Below, one piece after another: positions 3,163 to 61,650 of a DNA stretch of 64,000 nucleotides. The stretch covers positions 1 through 64,000 of IMG/VR virus record IMGVR_UViG_3300048929_000179; one strand, 5' to 3'. A model generated the notes under the pieces. It did no database searches. It worked only from the letters and a program-made list of their open reading frames with translations, and was not told the DNA's origin. Position numbers and translations under genes: made by a program. How positions within the stretch are numbered: the first letter of the stretch is position 1; the number at the start of each line of letters is the position of its first letter. The DNA is from a virus.

Positions 3163-3989
3163 TATGCCGTCACCTCGCTAATTTTATTTTTGAAATCTGA
3201 ATCATATTTATAGTATTCATCAATATATTTAGTGAGATACCGGTATAAAAAATCTTGACCTTTGGCGGTTACTCTAGTTATTGCAATTTGATATTTTCTT
3301 CCACCTTTAACCACATATGTATAACTTTTTACTTCAAAATAATCTTGATTAGAATAGTAAGAAGCAGGAGAGTTATCTTGATTAAAAACATTCATGTCAC
3401 GAAGAAACTGCATCATCTTATTTCTCTTTGTTTTTAATTTCTTTGCGGCTTGGTTCAACGAAGACGTTCCATCATTGTCAATATATAAGTCAAACTGTTC
3501 TGCCTTTGGTTTCATTATTTCATTTTCTTTTGCAAGGTTGGCTGACAATAATAGTGCTTCAGACAAAGTGGTGGGAATCTTAAAATTATCTATATCCACT
3601 TCCTTTGGTTTAATAAAGGCTTGTGCGAGCACATCTTTTGCTTTTAGCTGATAATGCATAAGCTTTTTTACCAGTTCTGGTGATTCTTCTTGCATTTTAG
3701 GCGTTATAGAAATTTTTGCCAACCAAAGAGGTAGAAAGTCTAATTCCAAACACGAAATCTCTTGATATCCTCCATTTGTTGGGAGGATTAAATTTCGTCC
3801 CCCTTGAAGAAGAACCAAATCCTTCTTCATTTTAGATTTTTCGTTCTTTGTTTGACCCTCAGATAGACCTATTCCATCACACACCCATGTTATGCCCACA
3901 TAAATTTTACCCGTAGAGTTATCTTGTGCGCACATAATTGCATCGCCATAAAAATTAACTTCTCTCGTTACTAATTCATTTTTCATCAT
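3162..3989 (-). CDS. ant: Phage antirepressor (P22 Ant-like N-terminal domain)
   Basis: 275 residues. Residues 1-115 match the P22_AR_N antirepressor domain: VNFYGDAIMCAQ, then the segment around residue 30 with GITWVCDGIGLSEGQ, and WLAKISITPKM near residue 95. The C-terminal part (about 160-270) is a phage antirepressor C-terminal (KilAC/ANT-like) winged-helix region with TTLSEALLLSANLAKENE and the aromatic SYTYVVKGGRKY. Antirepressors bind prophage repressors and trigger induction. The gene follows the Arc-like gene at 4116-4301, and a small antisense RNA lies between them, the same order as arc-sar-ant of phage P22. Confidence 0.85.
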   Translation of the reverse strand: MMKNELVTREVNFYGDAIMCAQDNSTGKIYVGITWVCDGIGLSEGQTKNEKSKMKKDLVLLQGGRNLILPTNGGYQEISCLELDFLPLWLAKISITPKMQEESPELVKKLMHYQLKAKDVLAQAFIKPKEVDIDNFKIPTTLSEALLLSANLAKENEIMKPKAEQFDLYIDNDGTSSLNQAAKKLKTKRNKMMQFLRDMNVFNQDNSPASYYSNQDYFEVKSYTYVVKGGRKYQIAITRVTAKGQDFLYRYLTKYIDEYYKYDSDFKNKISEVTA

Positions 3990-4014
3990 ACTATTCCTTT
4001 CATATTATATGTAT

Positions 4015-4043
4015 TTGACATCACAGAATAGAAAGGGTATAAT
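4015..4043 (+). promoter_or_regulatory. Sigma-A promoter of the antisense RNA
   Basis: Perfect consensus on the plus strand: TTGACA at 4015-4020, 17-bp spacer, TATAAT at 4038-4043. It points against the Arc-like/antirepressor operon. Confidence 0.8.
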
Positions 4044-4049
4044 TTAAAC

Positions 4050-4118
4050 AGATATAGCTTGCCTATATTGTCGTTGACAGCCTTAACTACTTTGGACGGT
4101 GGTAGGCTGTCTTTTTTA
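4050..4118 (+). ncRNA. Small antisense RNA between arc-like and ant genes (sar-like)
   Basis: Predicted transcript of about 69 nt from the consensus promoter at 4015-4043 to a strong terminator. It has a 5' hairpin (ATATAG...CTATAT, loop CTTGC) and a terminator stem GACAGCCT (4076-4083) / AGGCTGTC (4104-4111) followed by TTTTTT. The inner terminator loop holds ACTTTGGACGGTG, which is also found in two other predicted small RNAs at 57.8 and 59.9 kb. The RNA is complementary to the leader between the Arc-like and antirepressor genes and ends at the Arc-like stop codon. By position it matches sar RNA of P22, which silences ant translation; here it does not overlap the ant ribosome site itself, so the mechanism could be attenuation. 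Confidence 0.7.
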
Positions 4119-4301
4119 TTCTTCAAGCTCTTTTAAATTTATTACGCCATCAGAATACGCTTGCATCAATATTTCAAGCACTTCATTCATATCTAGTTCG
4201 CTTCTAGTACACGCAATCTTGAATTCCTTCTTTACTTCTGGTAGAAGAGTGAAGTTATATCGTTTACGCTTACTAGATACATATGTTGGTTCATCTGTCA
4301 T
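4116..4301 (-). CDS. Arc/CopG-type ribbon-helix-helix repressor
   Basis: 61 residues from the start at 4301, chosen because AAAGGTG lies nine bases upstream; a longer reading from 4343 has no ribosome site. Residues about 11-55 form a ribbon-helix-helix: the strand KRKRYNFTLLPEVKKEF, helix with ACTRSELDMNEVLEILMQAY. These proteins bind DNA as dimers and repress their own operon. A palindrome lies within the spacer of its promoter. A paralogue is encoded at 59684-59863 (shared pattern KEFKIAC/QDFKVAC, MNEVLEILMQAYSDG/MNTAMELFMKAYAEG). It is the first gene of the antirepressor operon, as arc is in P22. Confidence 0.8.
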   Translation of the reverse strand: MTDEPTYVSSKRKRYNFTLLPEVKKEFKIACTRSELDMNEVLEILMQAYSDGVINLKELEE

Positions 4302-4317
4302 ACAATCACACCTTTCA

Positions 4318-4360
4318 TACATCATATAGCTAATATACATCACATGATGTACGAAGTCAA
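4318..4360 (-). promoter_or_regulatory. Promoter and operator of the arc-ant-like operon
   Basis: On the minus strand TTGACT (4355-4360), 17-bp spacer, TATATT (4332-4337). The palindrome TACATCACATGATGTA (4336-4351) lies inside the spacer, and a further half-site TACATCAT is at 4318-4325. The arrangement fits autorepression by the ribbon-helix-helix protein. Confidence 0.7.
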
Positions 4361-4408
4361 TAGCGTAATGGAAAAATATTCAATTTATTATACACGTCTC
4401 TTCGTGCA

Positions 4409-13500: not shown

Positions 13501-16500
13501 ATTAGCTTAGGAATCTCACTTGCGGTAGCATTTGTGAGTGCATCACTCATATCTACAGTATAAGCCTTTTCTGCGGATAGTCTTTCTTGTGTAACTGCGA
13601 GTCTATTTGAAACTACTTCATCTGCATTTGCAACGCCCATATTCTTGAGCATAGCCGTGGTTAGTCCAGCGTTATCTTCCGTAAGCCCCTCTAATGCCTC
13701 AGAGTTATCGAGCCATTCAGTAACAAGATCGTTGAATGCTGATTGCGCCCCTTTAACATCTTTTGGTGAAGAAGATATCTTTTCAATGAAGTTTGCGTAG
13801 GAATCACCAAGTTCGCCAAATGCCTTTTTAAAATTGCCATCATCTAAAAGCGAATAATCAAAAGGATTTTTGCCTTGCATACTATTCATTATTTTGTCAA
13901 GGGACTCAAAACCCGTTGATAATGAATTAATATTGGCAATGAGTTCTTGTTTTGATATGGGAGCGAAAGCATTATTTCCAGACTCAGCAACCTTACCTTG
14001 AATAATATCTAGTCGTTGAAGAACCGTAATCACACCTTCAACGTTTAATCCGTATTTTTTAGCATACTCGACAAGCTTGTCAAAGTTGTCGGTTTTGCCG
14101 TCATCAGCCATTGCAAGCAAATCTTCTTCAGAGAGACCACGCAAGTCGCTTGTAAGACTTTTTAGGTTATCCCGATTTGACTTAATACCGTCTTCAAAAT
14201 CATATATACTAGTATCTGCTTTACTAAAAACATCTGTGACGATAGCACCATATCGACCCCAATCATTACTAGTAAGGTCTATAGATTTTTTTACACCATC
14301 AAGATCTTTTTTAGCAGTTGATATTTTTGATTCGTCACCAGACGCAAGAGCTTCGTTAAATTTTTCTACTGCTATTTTTGCATCATTATATCCATTTGCT
14401 AAATTCTTATTGTCACTTGCTTGAAGTTCGGCATCTAAGCGTGCTTTGTATTTTTCCCCAAATTCATCAATAGTTTTTTTTGCCTTATTTAACTCTGGGC
14501 TTGTGGCTCCTAATATTGTAGAAATAAGAGGATCATTCTTACCGTATTTTTCTTGGAGCGCTGTTACGGCATTCATAAAATCATTAATTTGTTTATATGC
14601 AGTAGTGGGATCTGCGGTAAGTCTAATAGTAAATGCTCCCGTAGACTCCTCCGTATCCGTCTTAAGCCCAAGCTGTTTTGCTATATCTAAAACATCTTTA
14701 CCTTGGTCGGTATACATACTAACATCTCTGCCAAAAATGTTGTAGGACTTCTGAGATGTCATTTGATTTTCTGCATCTTCCAAACCCTTAGTATTTTCAT
14801 TTAAGAATTTCTGTGCAGAAACCTTGTTTAGCTGTCTTATAGCTTCTGTTTGATCTTTGTAGGCATCTGTTACTAGATTAAGTTTTCCATGCTCCTCACC
14901 ATATTTTTCATTTAAGTCTTTCTGTATGGCAAGTAGCTCTTGCTTAATTTGTTTTTGTCGTTCCTCTGTAGCATTCGTGTTTAATAATTCGTCATGTAGT
15001 TTTTTATATTTGGAAGCAGATTCCTCTATAGCATTAGATGAATCTGTAAAGATATTAGTTGCCTCGGTTGTTTTTTGGCGCATATCTTCTACAGACTGCT
15101 TATACGCGTTCCACGCAGCCATTCCAGCAGTAACAGCCATTCCAACCATCATCAATGGATTCGCCATCATTGTAGCCCATAAACCCTTTAGCGCAGTACT
15201 AAGCCCAAGAGTGGACACCTTTGCTGTGGTTTGTGCAGTTGTAAGTGTTCCCGTGGAAATTGCAGCCTTAATTTCTTCGGCAGAAACTCCAGCTGTTGTC
15301 AAAGCCATAATTTTTTGTTCTTTGCTTAATGCAGATTGAGAAACTATATTGATTTTGGTTTGAGTATCTACTGTTTTTAAAATTGCAGCAAGAGAAGAGT
15401 AGCTTGATGCTCCAGTAGAAACAGCTGAGTTTAACTCATTTAAGGCTGTAACCGCTGTCCCCGCGGATTTTAAATCTTGAAAATTCTCAACAAATGCACC
15501 AAGTCCAATTGCACCCATTGCTGCGGGGAATAATCCAATTGTTTGAACTATTGATTGCAGGATATTATTAAGTTCTGATCCAGAATCAATTAAAGATTTT
15601 AGAAAATCAGAATTTACTACGGTCTGAGATAGTGACTGAAATGATGCAATATATTGTTGTGTTTTTGCCTCAAGAGAATCCATCCATCTGGCCTGTTCCT
15701 GATAGGCACTACCCTCTGAATTAATAGATGCCTGAAGCGCTTTATCTACCTGTCCAGATTCAAATGACTGGATAAGAGCAGCAACCTGATTTCCCCTCTG
15801 TTTACCTGCCACGATTTCGAGAAGATCTGCTTGATCAGTTTGAGAAATCTGTGACCAAACCTTAGATATTCCCTTTAAAATTTCATATGTAGACTTAAAA
15901 TTACCCGAATCATCAAAAATGTTTACCGTTCCGCCAGTACGATTGAGTATCTGTGTTTGAATCTTTGAAATAGAGTCAACATTTTCGTATTCTTCACCTA
16001 AGTCTTCTAGCTCACCCTTCATTCCACGCACACGCATTGAGAGAACTTTTAGTGCATTTCCCATTTCAGATGCGTTTTGAATAATTTCAGTACCACCAGT
16101 AAGCATTGCAAGTGATTGGTTTATATCGTTACCAGCAAGTTTTAATGCAGATGCAGAGTTTTTCAACCCTTCACCTAGAGATGCTGAATCAGTTGCAAAC
16201 TTATTTCCAAGTTCATTCAACGAATCAACAATTGTAATACTATCAGATGCCTGAATATTAAAAGCCTTCATTGCCGTAACAAGGTCAGAAACAGCAGTGT
16301 TGTCGTCAACTTCACCAACGTTTGCATAAATCGATGATATTTGAGCTAATTTAGCTGCATCATCAATTCCGAATCCTAACTTTGCCCACGTAGCTGTCTG
16401 CTCGACTAAACTAGAAATAGACCTACCTAATTCCTGTGCATCTTTGTTGGCATTTTTTAGAAATTGTCTATACTTTGTGTCGGTTTCATCTGTTACCTTA

Positions 16501-39411: not shown

Positions 39412-39495
39412 CGGTTGAGGTAGGATTTGAACCCACGGTGCGGTTAAACACATCTATTTTCAGGACAGACATCATAAGCCTCTCGATCACTCAAC
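39412..39495 (-). tRNA. tRNA-Ser (anticodon UGA), with C at position 33
   Basis: 84 bases. Acceptor GGTTGAG/CTCAACC with discriminator G, D-stem ATC/GAT, anticodon stem TCTGT/ATAGA with loop CCTGAAA, a long variable arm and T-arm GTGGG-TTCAAAT-CCTAC. The long variable arm and G73 identify serine. The base before the anticodon is C, where U33 is nearly universal. It may still be functional but with reduced decoding. Confidence 0.8.
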
Positions 39496-39499
39496 CGGA

Positions 39500-39585
39500 G
39501 CGTCGTGTGCAAGAGTCGAACTTGCAAGTCAAATTAATGACCGACAGATTAGCAATCTGTTCCAATACCATTATGGGAACACGAC
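39500..39585 (-). tRNA. tRNA-Ser (anticodon GCU)
   Basis: 86 bases. Acceptor GTCGTGT/ACACGAC with discriminator G, D-stem CCA/TGG, anticodon stem ACAGA/TCTGT with loop TTGCTAA (GCU), a long variable arm, and T-stem GCAAG/CTTGC around TTCGACT. It lies four bases upstream of the first tRNA, so both are probably cut from one transcript. It decodes AGC and AGU. Confidence 0.9.
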
Positions 39586-56251: not shown

Positions 56252-56455
56252 ATGGCAGTATATGTGTGTCAGTTACCACAAAAGTATCAAAACGAAATAG
56301 TAGATAGGTGTAGAAAGATATTTGAGACACTTGGAGACTGGATAAACATGGAAGAAGAAATCGAAAATGTATTAAACTCCAAAGTATTAGACGTATCTGC
56401 AATAGACGCTAGCCGATATTTAAAATATTACAAACCTTTAACAGAAAAGAAATAG
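56252..56455 (+). CDS. Early protein, first of a tandem paralogue pair
   Basis: 67 residues with AAGGAGG upstream. It shares with the next gene the order MxxYxCQLPQ, xEIVxxCxKxF, EEEIENVLxSKxxD. Helical, with Cys-rich N-terminus. Tandem duplication suggests diversification against a host target, as with anti-defence proteins, but nothing shows function. Confidence 0.6.
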   Translation: MAVYVCQLPQKYQNEIVDRCRKIFETLGDWINMEEEIENVLNSKVLDVSAIDASRYLKYYKPLTEKK

Positions 56456-56473: not shown

Positions 56474-56662
56474 ATGGTAATATACATATGCCAGTTACCG
56501 CAAGCAATCCAAGACGAGATTGTAAAGAAGTGCAAGAAGGTATTCAAGTCACTTGCCTATCCCGTAAACATAGAAGAAGAAATAGAAAACGTTCTTTGCT
56601 CTAAACTGTCCGATATTTCCGACACAATCGATATTAAGCCATATTTAAACATTAAGCCTTAA
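56474..56662 (+). CDS. Early protein, second of a tandem paralogue pair
   Basis: 62 residues (MVIYICQLPQAIQDEIVKKC), about half identical to the 56252 gene and 18 bases behind it, with AAAGGAGG upstream. Its 3' end lies within a tRNA-like fold (56655-56716). Confidence 0.6.
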   Translation: MVIYICQLPQAIQDEIVKKCKKVFKSLAYPVNIEEEIENVLCSKLSDISDTIDIKPYLNIKP

Positions 56663-56716
56663 CTCAAGTCTTACCCATAGAACATCATGGGAGTGGGTGC
56701 AAATCCCACAAAGGCT
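56655..56716 (+). ncRNA. tRNA-like folded element
   Basis: AGCCTT (56655-56660) pairs with AAGGCT (56711-56716), enclosing CCCAT...ATGGG and GTGGG-TGCAAAT-CCCAC, like an acceptor stem, an anticodon-type hairpin and a T-arm without a D-arm. It is no ordinary tRNA gene. It may be a leader element of the 56746 gene. Confidence 0.4.
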
Positions 56717-56745
56717 AGTACAAACTAAATAAGGAGGTTTTAAAA

Positions 56746-57149: not shown

Positions 57150-57251
57150 ATGCCCAAAGGCTACTTTGTTCCTTCCGGTTACATGGGATTCCTTAATAAT
57201 AGCTACCAACTATTTGCGACTGAATCCGAGTATCTGGAATACATAAGTTAA
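57150..57251 (+). CDS. Conserved-looking 33-residue peptide
   Basis: ORF of 33 codons, ATG at 57150 behind GGGAGGTGAT. The peptide (MPKGYFVPSGYMGFLNNSYQ then LFATESEYLEYIS) has the pattern of tiny proteins common in Lachnospiraceae mobile elements: GYM/GF, aromatic strands and LFATExEYxEY. Function unknown. Strong ribosome site and conserved pattern support it despite its size. Confidence 0.65.
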   Translation: MPKGYFVPSGYMGFLNNSYQLFATESEYLEYIS

Positions 57252-57484
57252 TCACCAAATGGTAGGGAGTAAGTCTCTCTACCTATCCCAGAAGAACATA
57301 TGTGAAACGTGTAGATAATCTCAACATCATTCTATCACATTTCGCAGGATATTCAATCCTAAACGTATGTTTCCCATGTAATTAGCAATCGCACCTTGAA
57401 AAGTGAATAGAAATGTATTAGAGTTTCATACTTAATGCGTGAGGCTGTTATATATGATATAATGGCGCACAGGAGGTGGAAACG
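57252..57484 (+). promoter_or_regulatory. Leader and promoter region of the XRE gene
   Basis: Contains a GGTAG...CTACC hairpin (57261-57283), GAACATA/TATGTTTC pairing, a TTGAAA-17-TAGAGT promoter (57396-57424), and a nearer TGATATAAT extended -10 (57458-57463). About 33 bp around the first promoter recur inverted at 57830-57860. Confidence 0.5.
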
Positions 57485-57694
57485 ATGATTAAATACTATA
57501 AGCTGTTTGACATTCTAAGGCGCAACAATATGACCGTTGAGCAGTTAAGAACCGACATTCAAGCGTCCAGTGCGACGATGACCAAACTACGCAAGAATGA
57601 GAATGTATCCATTGACGTGATTGACCGCATATGCGATAGATTGGAATGTCAACCGGGAGACATAATGGAGTTCGAAAAATCTTTAAAAAGTTAA
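57485..57694 (+). CDS. XRE/Cro-type regulator
   Basis: 69 residues from the ATG at 57485, eight bases behind AGGAGG; a GTG at 57476 lies within the ribosome site. Residues 5-62 are a short Cro/C1-type helix-turn-helix (FDILRRNNMTVEQLRTDIQA, SSATMTKLRKNENVSIDVID, RLECQPGDIMEF), the YdaS/YiaG-like small class. Convergent small RNA lies just downstream. It probably controls early genes. Confidence 0.75.
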   Translation: MIKYYKLFDILRRNNMTVEQLRTDIQASSATMTKLRKNENVSIDVIDRICDRLECQPGDIMEFEKSLKS

Positions 57695-57703
57695 AGAAAA
57701 CAA

Positions 57704-57732
57704 TTGACATATTAAAGAATACATGATATAAT
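57704..57732 (+). promoter_or_regulatory. Perfect early promoter
   Basis: TTGACA (57704-57709), 17-bp spacer, TATAAT (57727-57732) with TGA before it. It directs transcription through the structured region at 57.74-58.5 kb. Confidence 0.8.
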
Positions 57733-57744
57733 TGTATTATCAAA

Positions 57745-57823
57745 AGGAAATAGAAAAGGCGGCCACCGACACCGACCAAAGTATCAGACCACCTTTTCAC
57801 ACAACACTTGATAATACAAGCGC
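57745..57823 (-). ncRNA. Predicted antisense small RNA (second member)
   Basis: On the minus strand TTGAAA (57853-57858), 17-bp spacer, TAGAAT (57830-57835). The transcript has a 5' hairpin CGCTTG-TATTAT-CAAGTG and a terminator-like stem GAAAAGGTGG/CCGCCTTTTC (57753-57762 with 57789-57798) whose loop contains ACTTTGGTCGGTG. It faces the plus-strand promoter at 57704-57732, so the two RNAs overlap fully. On the plus strand the outer arms TTGTATTATCAA / TTGATAATACAA are also perfectly complementary. U-tract is weak. Confidence 0.5.
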
Positions 57824-57952
57824 AATAATATTCTAATACATTTTTATTCGCTTTTCAAGTGCAATCGCACACCAATTTCCTTTAAGTAATTATCTCCAGT
57901 GATGAAACTGGAATCAAGTAGAACGGCTCACTAAAAACTGAATAAAGTGAAC

Positions 57953-58127
57953 AACCGATTCTATACGGTTGAAACGTGAAGCGAAATAGAGCCTTCCATC
58001 TTTAAAGGTGTATAGGTTGAACCACATCGGCATATATTGCGGTCACTGGTTACGGGGCTTTTGAAAAAGTAGACACGTAAGAATATATAGAAGCCGTCAG
58101 CGAACAGATTATAGTTTGCATTACGGC
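57953..58127 (+). ncRNA. Conserved structured RNA motif, copy A
   Basis: In order: hairpin AACCG-ATTCTATA-CGGTT (57953-57970), GAAGCGAAAT (57978-57987), stem AGCC/GGCT (57990-57993 with 58056-58059) enclosing CATCTTT/AAAGGTG and AACCA/TGGTT hairpins, TGAAAAAGTAGACA (58062-58075), and GCCGT/ACGGC with inner GCGAAC/GTTTGC. The two single-stranded blocks and the stem positions recur in copy B, with different stem sequences. Confidence 0.65.
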
Positions 58128-58499
58128 ATAGAAATAAATCTTCCAGAGGTAGAGACTGGAATCTATTTCAAACGAAAAACTTCTTAAAATCTAATACAAT
58201 CTATGGTTATTTCTATTTTGGAAACAACCACCGTAACAACCCTATGAGTCATAGGTAACCAACAAATAACGGCAGACCGTAACACAATTTTATTATCTAT
58301 CATGCGAGCAAATATATAAATCAAACATATCTAAGACGTATGAAACGAACGATGATTAAGGCTCTTGGCAACTACTCATTAGGAGAGGCTCTGCTACACA
58401 ATCCTTAATATATAGTGAATTTCTTATTTTGGAATCATTGGTTTATTGTTCGTATGAATACTTAATGAAATGTATAATTATAAAGAAAGGCGCATAAAT

Positions 58500-58673
58500 A
58501 TGAAAATTAAAAATGTAATTATCGTCACAGCACTTGTGACAAGTGCTTTTTTATTTGGCAGATTTGGAAATATGCACACCATCAATATGAATCAGGTCAC
58601 AGATATTCAAGTAAATGACAACGGAGCACAGATAACCTTATTAGACGGTACAGGATACTATTGGGAAAGATGA
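58500..58673 (+). CDS. Small exported or membrane-anchored protein
   Basis: 57 residues from the ATG at 58500 (AAAGGCG upstream); an earlier ATG at 58470 has no ribosome site. Residues 2-20 (KIKNVIIVTALVTSAFLFG) form a signal or membrane anchor, followed by a small beta domain with VTDIQVNDNGAQITLLDGTG. Such short anchored proteins occur in many Lachnospiraceae elements. Function unknown. Confidence 0.6.
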   Translation: MKIKNVIIVTALVTSAFLFGRFGNMHTINMNQVTDIQVNDNGAQITLLDGTGYYWER

Positions 58674-58711
58674 CCAAATATCCATTTCATTGAAAAGGAG
58701 AAATATAAAAT

Positions 58712-58942
58712 ATGAGAGATTTAAAAGAAATTTATCGCAAGTATGAAGTAAAAGCTAACAGCGTAGAAGATTTTCTAAAAAGATATACGAAACCTAGTAG
58801 AAACGAACAGAGATGTGCCGATTATCAAGAAGCAAGAATCGAATCTCATACGGAAGATTTAAACAAATACGGTTATACATTTATAACTCACCACGACAGC
58901 ATAACAGGCGAATGTGTTAGCTATTATGGGACTGAAAAATAA
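58712..58942 (+). CDS. Early hypothetical protein
   Basis: 76 residues with AAAGGAG upstream. Charged and helical at the start (LKEIYRKYEVKANSVEDFLK), ending with a beta part THHDSITGECVSYYG. Followed by a terminator. No family recognised. Confidence 0.6.
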   Translation: MRDLKEIYRKYEVKANSVEDFLKRYTKPSRNEQRCADYQEARIESHTEDLNKYGYTFITHHDSITGECVSYYGTEK

Positions 58943-58963
58943 CAGTCAACACCAAATTTTACG

Positions 58964-58997
58964 GGCTTGTATTTGTCACAGGATACAAGCCTATTTT
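58964..58997 (+). terminator. Rho-independent terminator
   Basis: GGCTTGTAT (58964-58972) pairs with ATACAAGCC (58983-58991) and is followed by TATTTTAG. Confidence 0.75.
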
Positions 58998-59043
58998 AGT
59001 AAAAGAAAACACTATCAATCGATTATTTGACAGGAGAGATAGA

Positions 59044-59235
59044 ATGTATAAGGGGAAAAATATAGCTAAAGAAATTGCTAATATGAAATATATTTATCAG
59101 CTCATTGTTAATGAAGGAAAAGAGGAATACAAAGACGAGTATATTTGTAGCTTTCAAATTGTAAGAAATTATAGCATTCAAAAAATACCGAACAAATACA
59201 TTGAGCTTTATAGAAGGTTAGAAGGGATCAAATGA
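59044..59235 (+). CDS. Early hypothetical protein
   Basis: 63 residues, ATG at 59044 with GGAGAG upstream. Basic, Ile/Lys-rich (IAKEIANMKYIYQLIVNEGK). No family recognised. Confidence 0.55.
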   Translation: MYKGKNIAKEIANMKYIYQLIVNEGKEEYKDEYICSFQIVRNYSIQKIPNKYIELYRRLEGIK

Positions 59236-59269
59236 AACTATTCTTTTACAGTGAAAGGAAAACAATAAT

Positions 59270-59557
59270 ATGAATAAAACAGCAAGAACGCCAAACCATA
59301 GCGAATGGACGGAGGAAAGATATAAAGATTTTAATCTAAGAATAGACCATTTAAAAAACCATTCAAAATATGAGTGGTTAAGAGAATACGCTGATGATGC
59401 TATTAAATGGAATGAGTGCGCAGGACATTTAATGATTAAAGCAACCGATTTTATAGAACGAATTGAGAAAATGCCACTAGATTATATAGAAGGTTGGCTA
59501 AATGGAGAAAATCAACTTGAATGGAAACCAGAGTTTAAGCAACAGAACAGCAAGTAA
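59270..59557 (+). CDS. Early hypothetical protein
   Basis: 95 residues with GAAAGGA upstream. Helical and Trp-rich (HSEWTEERYKDFNLRIDHLK, YEWLREYADDAIKWNECAGH). It ends the second early transcript before a terminator. No family recognised. Confidence 0.6.
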   Translation: MNKTARTPNHSEWTEERYKDFNLRIDHLKNHSKYEWLREYADDAIKWNECAGHLMIKATDFIERIEKMPLDYIEGWLNGENQLEWKPEFKQQNSK

Positions 59558-59568
59558 AATCAATATTT

Positions 59569-59600
59569 GACACGGACTGGAAACGGTCCTTTTATTTTAC
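59569..59600 (+). terminator. Terminator
   Basis: GGACT-GGAAAC-GGTCC followed by TTTTATTTT. Confidence 0.65.
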
Positions 59601-59631
59601 ATAGAAATATTAAAAATATTCAAATATCTAG

Positions 59632-59660
59632 TTGACAATCATATACCTATATGATATACT
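59632..59660 (+). promoter_or_regulatory. Early promoter of the RHH-antirepressor unit
   Basis: TTGACA (59632-59637), 17-bp spacer, TGATATACT (-10 at 59655-59660). The transcript starts about 15 bases before the ribosome site. Confidence 0.8.
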
Positions 59661-59683
59661 AATATTATCAAAGGAGGTAAGAA

Positions 59684-59863
59684 ATGGCAAAGAAAACTTT
59701 CGGAACCTCGATTGATGAAAAGATTATACAGGATTTCAAGGTAGCCTGTGCACAGAACAACATTCCAATGAATACTGCAATGGAATTATTCATGAAAGCG
59801 TATGCTGAAGGCAGATTTAAAATTGATATCCAATATGAAATGAATCAATATGAGGAAAAATAA
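59684..59863 (+). CDS. Arc/CopG-type ribbon-helix-helix regulator
   Basis: 59 residues from the ATG at 59684 behind AAAGGAGGTAAGA. Strand TFGTSIDEKIIQDFKVAC and helix NNIPMNTAMELFMKAYAEG form the ribbon-helix-helix, a paralogue of the protein encoded at 4116-4301. An antisense small RNA ends at its stop codon, and the next gene is an ORF6N/ORF6C antirepressor-type protein, so the arc-sRNA-antirepressor order is seen twice in this genome. Confidence 0.8.
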   Translation: MAKKTFGTSIDEKIIQDFKVACAQNNIPMNTAMELFMKAYAEGRFKIDIQYEMNQYEEK

Positions 59864-59931
59864 ATAGATGGCTGCTCACCGTCCAAAGTTAACAACCATC
59901 TATCACAGACACTTGAACAAAGTCAAAGTGC
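59862..59931 (-). ncRNA. Predicted antisense small RNA (third member)
   Basis: On the minus strand TTGAAA (59961-59966), 17-bp spacer, TATTAT (59938-59943). The RNA has a 5' hairpin CACTT...AAGTG and a terminator stem ATAGATGG/CCATCTAT (59896-59903 with 59864-59871) followed by TTATTTTTCC. The loop contains AACTTTGGACGGTG, as in the RNA at 4050-4118. It is complementary to the 3' end and downstream leader of the RHH message. Confidence 0.6.
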
Positions 59932-60207
59932 ATAATTATAATACACTATCTAACGACTTATTTCAAGTCAGATTTCCCAATTGATAAATAATTAAGGGTT
60001 GCAACACCTGGAACGGGCAACGCAAGTTATAGAGCGTTAAGGGAATGAAGCGAAATGTTCGTGAGATCTGTCAGAGATGACAGCCGTTTGAATAGCCGTG
60101 AGGTCACGCCGAACTGAAAAAGTAGACATTCTAACAGGTTGAAATACCTATATAAATAACAGTCAAAACAAACTGATTGTAATTTAAAGAAAAAGGAGAT
60201 TTTAAGA
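59864..60207 (+). other. Non-coding leader between RHH and antirepressor genes
   Basis: About 340 bases without a gene on the plus strand. It contains the antisense RNA locus and structured RNA copy B (60019-60147), then the ribosome site AAAAAGGAG of the 60208 gene. Confidence 0.55.
60019..60147 (+). ncRNA. Conserved structured RNA motif, copy B
   Basis: Hairpin AACGC...GCGTT (60019-60038), GAAGCGAAAT (60047-60056), stem GTTC/GAAC (60057-60060 with 60111-60114) extended by GTG/CAC and enclosing CTGTC-AGAGAT-GACAG, then TGAAAAAGTAGACA (60115-60128) and hairpin AGGT-TGAAAT-ACCT. Same order and the same two unpaired blocks as copy A. It lies in the leader of the antirepressor-type gene. Confidence 0.65.
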
Positions 60208-60927
60208 ATGGAGAATGTTATAAAAATTAACGAAACAGATTTGCATGTAAAAATGTGGAGCGGTCAAAGAATGGTTACTTTATCAGATATAGACAAAGTA
60301 CACGATAGACCAACAGGCACAGCTAGAAGAAACTTCAACGAGAACAAAAATCATTTGAACTTAGATGAGGATTATATCGTACGAAATTCGTACGAAGCAA
60401 AAACAGAATATAACATAGTGGCTCCCAACGGTTTGACGTTGTTAACTGAAAGTGGTTACTTACTCCTTGTAAAATCCTTTACCGATGATTTAGCATGGGA
60501 AGTACAGAGGAAACTTGTAAACAGTTATTTCAAACTGCAAGAACTGGCTCCACAATCAATGGAAGTATTAGCGTTACAGAAACACCTTGACGTTATGTTT
60601 GTTCAAATCAATAACATGGAATCCATGATTGAGAAACAGCTTGAAATATTCGAACAGACGAAAACACAGCTTGATAAGGTAATGTCAAACATGACACTTA
60701 CAACGGTTCAGCAGAACAAAATTCACCGACTTGCAAAAGATAGAGTAAGTTTTCTTTTAGGTGGTGCTCATTCGCCGGAATACAAGAGTAATTCCAGAAT
60801 GTACTTCATCAATCTTTGGAACGGCTTAAAGGCACGTTTCGAATGTGGCAGCCATTGGCAGGACTTGAATCCAGCGGCATATGATGGTGCCGTGAAATAC
60901 GTCCAGAAATGGTCATATAGCGAATAA
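60208..60927 (+). CDS. ORF6N/ORF6C-type antirepressor protein
   Basis: 239 residues. Residues 10-100 are an ORF6N domain (RMVTLSDIDKVHDRPTGTAR, VAPNGLTLLTESGYLLLVKS). Residues 165-239 an ORF6C domain (QQNKIHRLAKDRVSFLLGGA; YFINLWNGLKARFECGSHWQ, DLNPAAYDGAVKYVQKW). A coiled coil joins them. Such phage proteins act as antirepressors or early regulators. It follows the RHH gene and the structured leader and is followed by a terminator. Confidence 0.85.
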   Translation: MENVIKINETDLHVKMWSGQRMVTLSDIDKVHDRPTGTARRNFNENKNHLNLDEDYIVRNSYEAKTEYNIVAPNGLTLLTESGYLLLVKSFTDDLAWEVQRKLVNSYFKLQELAPQSMEVLALQKHLDVMFVQINNMESMIEKQLEIFEQTKTQLDKVMSNMTLTTVQQNKIHRLAKDRVSFLLGGAHSPEYKSNSRMYFINLWNGLKARFECGSHWQDLNPAAYDGAVKYVQKWSYSE

Positions 60928-60937
60928 TAAACAGGGC

Positions 60938-60972
60938 TTACACTTTTCATAGGGTGTGAGCCTTTTCTATTA
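60938..60972 (+). terminator. Rho-independent terminator
   Basis: GGCTTACAC pairs with GTGTGAGCC and is followed by TTTTCTATT. Confidence 0.75.
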
Positions 60973-61612: not shown

Positions 61613-61650
61613 TTGAAGCCATTGGACAGCGTTCCAGTGGCTTTTATAGT
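61613..61650 (+). terminator. Rho-independent terminator
   Basis: AGCCATTGGA pairs with TCCAGTGGCT over 10 bp and is followed by TTTATAG. Confidence 0.7.

Follow-up and report, generated by a model that had tools for sequence, protein, structure and literature searches.

What is the structured RNA that a single phage carries twice behind small regulator genes, and what could it do there? The phage is the 119,956-bp IMG/VR record IMGVR_UViG_3300048929_000179, and the window analyzed here consists of its bases 1-64000 (64,000 nt). An earlier note had placed two copies of a new-looking RNA class in this window, and exact sequence matches bear out their positions. On the + strand, GAAGCGAAAT is found at 57978-57987 in copy A and at 60047-60056 in copy B, and TGAAAAAGTAGACA is found at 58062-58075 and 60115-60128, respectively; these are the sole exact matches of either sequence in the window. 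Model R1, scanned over the whole record, recovers only these two copies, copy B at 85.7 bits and copy A at 79.8 bits; the next best match reaches 11.7 bits. Model R2 gives 77.9 bits to copy B and 66.2 bits to copy A.

The RNA consists of an outer stem (P1), an asymmetric internal loop, an inner stem (P2) and a distal domain of variable length. Exact motifs, models R1 and R2 and covariation together define copy A at 57974-58078 and copy B at 60043-60131 (both + strand). In copy A, P1 (57974-57978/58074-58078) and P2 (57988-57993/58056-58061) enclose an internal loop whose 5' side is GAAGCGAAAT (57978-57987) and whose 3' side is TGAAAAAGTAGAC (58062-58074). Copy B is organized in the same order, with P1 at 60043-60047/60127-60131, GAAGCGAAAT at 60047-60056, P2 at 60057-60061/60110-60114 and TGAAAAAGTAGAC at 60115-60127. 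The inner stem differs between the copies and yet pairs in both (AGAGCC/GGCUUU in copy A and GUUCG/CGAAC in copy B), as the earlier note had observed. The outer stem, which that note overlooked, closes the motif and is the best-supported stem; it pairs ACGU 57974-57977 with 58075-58078 in copy A and GAAU 60043-60046 with 60128-60131 in copy B. A further hairpin of the form AACNN/NNGTT, assigned from the sequence and the predicted fold, precedes P1 on the + strand in copy A (AACCG/CGGTT, 57953-57970, 5 bp with an 8-nt loop) and in copy B (AACGC/GCGTT, 60019-60038). This hairpin is a weaker feature than had been claimed because its sequence is not conserved family-wide: a hairpin 5' of P1 can be read by eye in five of the seven known members, with no common sequence.

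The five members beyond copies A and B reside in four other phage contigs and one Mediterraneibacter genome. Four of them were recovered, among chance hits, by searching viral and genome contigs for a gapped pattern that spans the two conserved blocks: L122 (IMGVR_UViG_2921176663_000002), L124 (Mediterraneibacter glycyrrhizinilyticus An427), L134 (IMGVR_UViG_3300031998_000803) and L136 (IMGVR_UViG_3300028797_002345, whose contig stops at the RNA). The fifth, L206 (IMGVR_UViG_3300033463_004708), came from a scan of contigs that carry relatives of the L134/L136 terminase, and its core reads GAAGUGAAAU in place of GAAGCGAAAU. Judging from sample numbers and host, we read the viral member contigs as being of gut or rumen origin.

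All seven members share the P1, internal loop, P2 and distal domain architecture. In their alignment, P1 comprises five pairs, the last of which is an invariant G-C, and P2 comprises four. P1 is closed by C-G in L134 and L206 and by U-A in the other five members. The internal loop between the stems reads GAAGYGAAAY / UGAAAAAGUAGAC; its conservation is partly imposed, since six of the seven members were found through exact core patterns, and the stems are unaffected by this selection. The distal domain ranges from ~25 to 95 nt and contains CCGUUUGA in copy B, L122 and L206. Seven of the nine P1/P2 pairs have changed on both sides with pairing kept. Paired cells make up 96.6% of P1 and P2 versus 64% after shuffling, double-change cells number 20 versus 6.7, and the covariation score is 0.884 versus 0.262, a value that none of 500 shuffles reaches; these shuffle statistics ignore the relatedness of the members, which do adjoin unrelated genes. 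Sliding the 3' strands by one to three columns lowers the paired cells to 27-51%.

A search of Rfam 15 places no family above its gathering score over copy A or B and yields nothing credible at E values up to 10; the best sub-threshold matches fall outside both copies. The motif texts GAAAAAGUAGAC and AAAAGUAGAC were not found in the literature searched. Thus, the proposal of a class outside Rfam survives, and further homologues with compensatory changes now accompany it. We conclude with high confidence that copies A and B represent a real, new and covariation-supported class of phage leader RNA. Whatever its function, this RNA family is new and absent from Rfam.

The family is rare. L124 is the sole member among 397 Lachnospiraceae and the sole match among 391 Clostridia, as it is among 58 genomes of its genus. 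A pattern scan of 392 genomes of its order returned L124 as the only member, along with a second match that was rejected as coding-like. Most searches used exact blocks, and the member count is therefore a lower bound. Other candidates were discarded as coding or chance sequence because P1 or P2 is unpaired or the core fails; they comprise genome pattern matches L123 and L125-L132, viral-contig matches L133, L135, L163-L170 and L245-L308, and Clostridia-genome matches L148-L162, L240-L244 and G999. TGAAAAAGTAGACA alone retrieves 120 loci from viral contigs, among which no true family member was recognized.

Where does the RNA lie relative to genes? In all six members with enough flank, it is located 78-280 nt after a promoter-like sequence and beside a small repressor gene, where promoters are defined as consensus matches. 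The earlier note had assigned a small regulator gene upstream of each copy, and profile matches confirm both. Upstream of copy A lies a Cro/C1-type HTH regulator gene (57476-57694, + strand; Pfam PF13443, E 3.2e-18), followed by a promoter-like TTGACA-17-TATAAT (57704-57732, + strand; 12/12) whose start is ~230 nt before P1. Upstream of copy B lies an Arc-like ribbon-helix-helix (RHH) regulator gene (59684-59863, + strand; PHROG 3180, E 9.9e-7) with its own promoter-like TTGACA-17-TATACT (59632-59660, + strand). A second promoter-like sequence, TTGAAC-18-TATAAT (59913-59942, + strand), would start transcription ~89 nt before P1 of copy B. Downstream of copy B is an ORF6N/ORF6C gene (60208-60927, + strand; PF10552 E 5e-13, PF10543 E 1e-8), and this copy is indeed in the leader of an antirepressor-type gene.

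The other members are arranged comparably. L122 has a strong promoter with repeated AAGTGATACTTAT boxes and a divergent small RHH-like gene of Arc size; its RNA begins 78 nt from the predicted start and is followed by a 34-aa gene that is related by eye to a window ORF at 57150. L206 has a promoter with a palindrome, a divergent RHH-like gene and the RNA at 89 nt. In L134, the divergent RHH-like gene falls into one PHROG with that of L206, the RNA lies at ~278 nt, and an ArdC gene follows. L124 has a divergent HTH protein, a TTGACG-17-TATTAT promoter, the RNA at 247 nt and then tubR-tubZ. A motif scan of the TubZ loci in nine other Lachnospiraceae genomes found no copy, which indicates that the RNA does not travel with tubR-tubZ. 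Every member with flank thus resides in an early-gene leader beside a regulator, although the genes themselves differ. The genes downstream are wholly different (ORF6N antirepressor, ArdC, tubR-tubZ and small unknown genes), which favors regulation of the transcript over regulation of a single gene. Tandem small paralogous genes of the CQLPxxIQxEIV type occur at window 56252-56455 and 56474-56662, with a homologue at L122:3279-3482, a few hundred bases behind the L122 RNA. Leader hairpins with a loop like UGCAAAU/UUGCAAGU, identified by eye, precede some small genes at window 56683-56720, L134 5590-5640 and L206 900-930.

The 176-kb gut phage MT835469 has the RHH gene, boxes and promoter of L122 (98.8% identity over 490 nt), and its downstream genes are 88.8% identical to those of L122. 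The leader between them (L309:5830-6610 versus L122:3500-3960) is entirely different and contains no copy of the RNA; it matches no Rfam family and nothing similar elsewhere in phage or plasmid collections. Since the two related gut phages keep the promoter and operon but differ in the leader, the leader behaves as an exchangeable cassette.

The operons behind the RNA contain intrinsic terminators. Four + strand terminators are found behind copies A and B: 58964-58991 within the gene run of copy A (53 nt before the next start, with no credible promoter in that gap), 59574-59589 closing that run ahead of the copy B regulator promoter, 60936-60961 directly after the antirepressor gene, and 61619-61640 in the copy B gene run (next start 48 nt on). 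After 60936-60961, the next start is only 33 nt on, which leaves no room for a promoter; in all, three of the four terminators have no credible promoter ahead of the next gene. Between 57.7 and 120 kb, the + strand has six intergenic co-directional terminators, of which these four lie in the 3.8 kb that follow copies A and B (binomial p 2e-4, computed after the cluster had been noticed). The L122 operon likewise has promoter-less internal terminators, at 13658, 10745 and 20648, and few terminators were found in the examined part of the L124 operon. In the literature, internal terminators serve as a sign of antitermination (PMC8955417). However, promoter-less intergenic terminators also occur in the late operons of the window phage and the L122 phage and are not specific to RNA-led operons. 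We therefore rejected terminator density as proof of antitermination and regard the support from terminators as moderate.

Leader position combined with operon-internal intrinsic terminators is seen for copies A and B and for L122. From this position and these terminators, we tentatively propose cis-acting processive antitermination as the best single mechanism for the RNA, at a likelihood a little short of even. When the repressor is off, RNA polymerase would transcribe the RNA within the first 80-280 nt. Once folded, the RNA would bind the polymerase during elongation, either by itself or together with a protein of the host or phage, and the bound polymerase would become terminator-resistant and read the downstream early genes. 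The RNA would thereby do the job of HK022 put or pLS20 conAn2.

Could the RNA instead be a switch-type leader, with a metabolite or a protein of phage or host bound in the internal loop and the first gene regulated through translation or attenuation? A purine-rich asymmetric loop that is strictly conserved and flanked by two covarying stems is typical of ligand or protein sites, and the ribosome-binding site of the first gene follows the RNA within ~50-75 nt in L122 and copy B. However, the downstream genes have no common pathway, the distance from the RNA to the first gene varies from ~70 to >400 nt, and neither a conserved terminator nor a conserved sequestered ribosome-binding site was found 3' of the RNA as an expression platform; we consider a switch rather unlikely. 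The variable distance to the coding region would suit a 5' stabilizing or processing element that protects early mRNA, as would the compact fold in the 5' leader and, for three of the six members, its closeness to the predicted start (78-89 nt). Such a role is improbable, given that the strictly fixed loop sequence exceeds the needs of a protective hairpin, and so is its variant, an excised trans-acting small RNA, given that no terminator follows the RNA and that the RNA is always co-directional with the operon. The element could also act as DNA or single-stranded DNA, as an origin, packaging or recombination site, since hairpins can act as DNA and tubR-tubZ is nearby in one case. We rejected this reading, which is hardly credible, because the element is always oriented behind a promoter-like sequence on the coding strand of the next gene; moreover, the distances vary and one phage has two copies 2 kb apart.

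A link to antisense control deserves separate consideration because a predicted antisense gene lies 120-150 nt upstream of both copies. The earlier note had described antisense RNAs beside the regulators. Minus-strand promoters, terminators and a common loop make them good predictions, and they are predictions only. Predicted gene A (57759-57858, - strand) has the promoter TTGAAA-17-TAGAAT (57858-57830) and a terminator at 57792-57759, and predicted gene B (59867-59966, - strand) has TTGAAA-17-TATTAT (59966-59938) and a terminator at 59900-59867. Each would yield an RNA of ~70-85 nt with two hairpins. A third predicted antisense RNA (~4015-4109, + strand) has the promoter TTGACA-17-TATAAT and a terminator at 4078-4109. 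The loop ACTTTGG(A/T)CGGTG, which contains a YUNR-type UUGG, is common to all three and occurs at only these three sites genome-wide; the three may constitute a new antisense RNA family.

The third antisense RNA belongs to a module on the - strand (window 3200-4400) that also comprises an RHH-like regulator and a P22_AR_N + ANT antirepressor gene. The regulator-antisense-antirepressor order is found there (4340-3200, - strand) and at 59684-60927. This arrangement resembles P22 immI (arc - sar - ant), which also has an Arc-like repressor and an antisense RNA between regulator and antirepressor. P22 immI is not known to include such a structured RNA, which the present phage adds in two of its three modules of this kind. 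The module at window 3200-4400 is without the structured RNA, and the antisense module is therefore separable from it: the phage has three P22 immI-like modules, with the structured RNA as a component of its own. These observations bear on the idea that the RNA is the effector end of an antisense switch, which blocks or unblocks the leader upon upstream antisense pairing, as in the attenuation control of pT181 or P22 sar. Antisense RNAs A and B do give weak sub-threshold matches to ctRNA_pT181. However, the module also exists without the RNA at 4078-4109, and the common loop motif was not found at the L122, L124, L134, L136 and L206 loci, and such a switch is highly improbable. Under the antitermination reading, the antisense RNA between regulator and leader in A and B would be a second brake, like sar in P22 immI.

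How does the proposed antiterminator compare with known ones? Few RNAs are known to make RNA polymerase ignore terminators on their own, put and EAR among them, and conAn2 (plus a protein) and canT are recent additions. The idea of antitermination preceded our retrieval of these RNAs for comparison. In its position within the leader, the RNA corresponds to the nut sites of lambda and the put sites of HK022. Of the two put RNAs of HK022, each ~70 nt long, one directly follows its promoter and the other lies ~270 nt downstream, and terminators precede lambdoid early genes (PMC9378689). Repressor-controlled early promoters, two copies in one phage, a compact fold and early-gene terminators are thus shared with put (PMC9378689). 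However, put is a lambdoid element of ~70 nt with two adjacent stem-loops, whereas the present RNA is built from P1, an internal loop, P2 and a variable distal domain; it does not form the two stem-loops of put, and we saw no common sequence or structure.

The conAn2 RNA of the conjugative plasmid pLS20 and its relatives is similar in its occurrence in Firmicutes, its location in a repressor-controlled operon leader and the internal terminators behind it. One of its substructures, P1-U|GCGAG..(variable hairpin)..GUAGAC|A-P1', can be set beside P1-U|GAAGCGAAAU..(P2)..UGAAAAAGUAGAC|A-P1' in the present RNA, in which the GUAGAC block is placed structurally as in conAn2. As background, six such P1-bearing arrangements occur in 2.1 Mb on both strands, or ~1e-3 per 300-nt RNA. 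conAn2 differs in its length (~300 nt), a second conserved part and its protein partner ConAn1; no ConAn1-like gene was recognized in the gene lists beside members. Furthermore, GUAGAC is not invariant among conAn2 relatives (GCAGGC, AUAGAU, GUAACC and GUAGCC occur), and model R2, run on Tn916 and seven conAn plasmid loci (eight in all), gave 13.6 bits at best, off the conAn2 core, so that conAn2 does not rise above noise. The conAn2 cores aligned too poorly to yield a model for the reverse comparison. Because GUAGAC varies in distant conAn2 and R2 misses conAn2, the likeness is a lead and not membership. We find it doubtful that the present RNA is a Clostridia-phage antiterminator whose polymerase-binding core (GCGAR/GUAGAC, flanked by two stems) has a common ancestor with that of conAn2. 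If it were, the shared core would be one widespread motif that makes the Firmicutes polymerase terminator-resistant in both phages and conjugative plasmids.

EAR, also called epsC RNA (RF01735), is a cis-acting RNA antiterminator in a leader as well, but its consensus differs; the RF01735 model has no match in the phage, and EAR loci L232-L239 are without the common core. The canT RNA of Tn916 is a cis-acting RNA antiterminator on a mobile element (PMC11658703), and no common core was found between canT (L226) and the present RNA. A new, well-conserved RNA class that occupies the nut/put position in Clostridia phages would be a concrete candidate for the means by which large gut phages switch on early transcription. 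Should antitermination be demonstrated, the short invariant core would allow the binding of polymerase by leader RNAs to be tested directly in Firmicutes.

Two minor observations arose along the way. The pemK RNA model RF02913 matches the Tn916 canT region in plasmid pCTN1046 (L226:2323-2423) at 55 bits (gathering score 34.8, E 1.9e-9). No link between pemK RNA and canT was found in the literature searched, and the match points to the pemK RNA motif as a component of the known cis antiterminator canT. The window also contains two tandem tRNA matches (Rfam RF00005) at 39412-39585 on the - strand.
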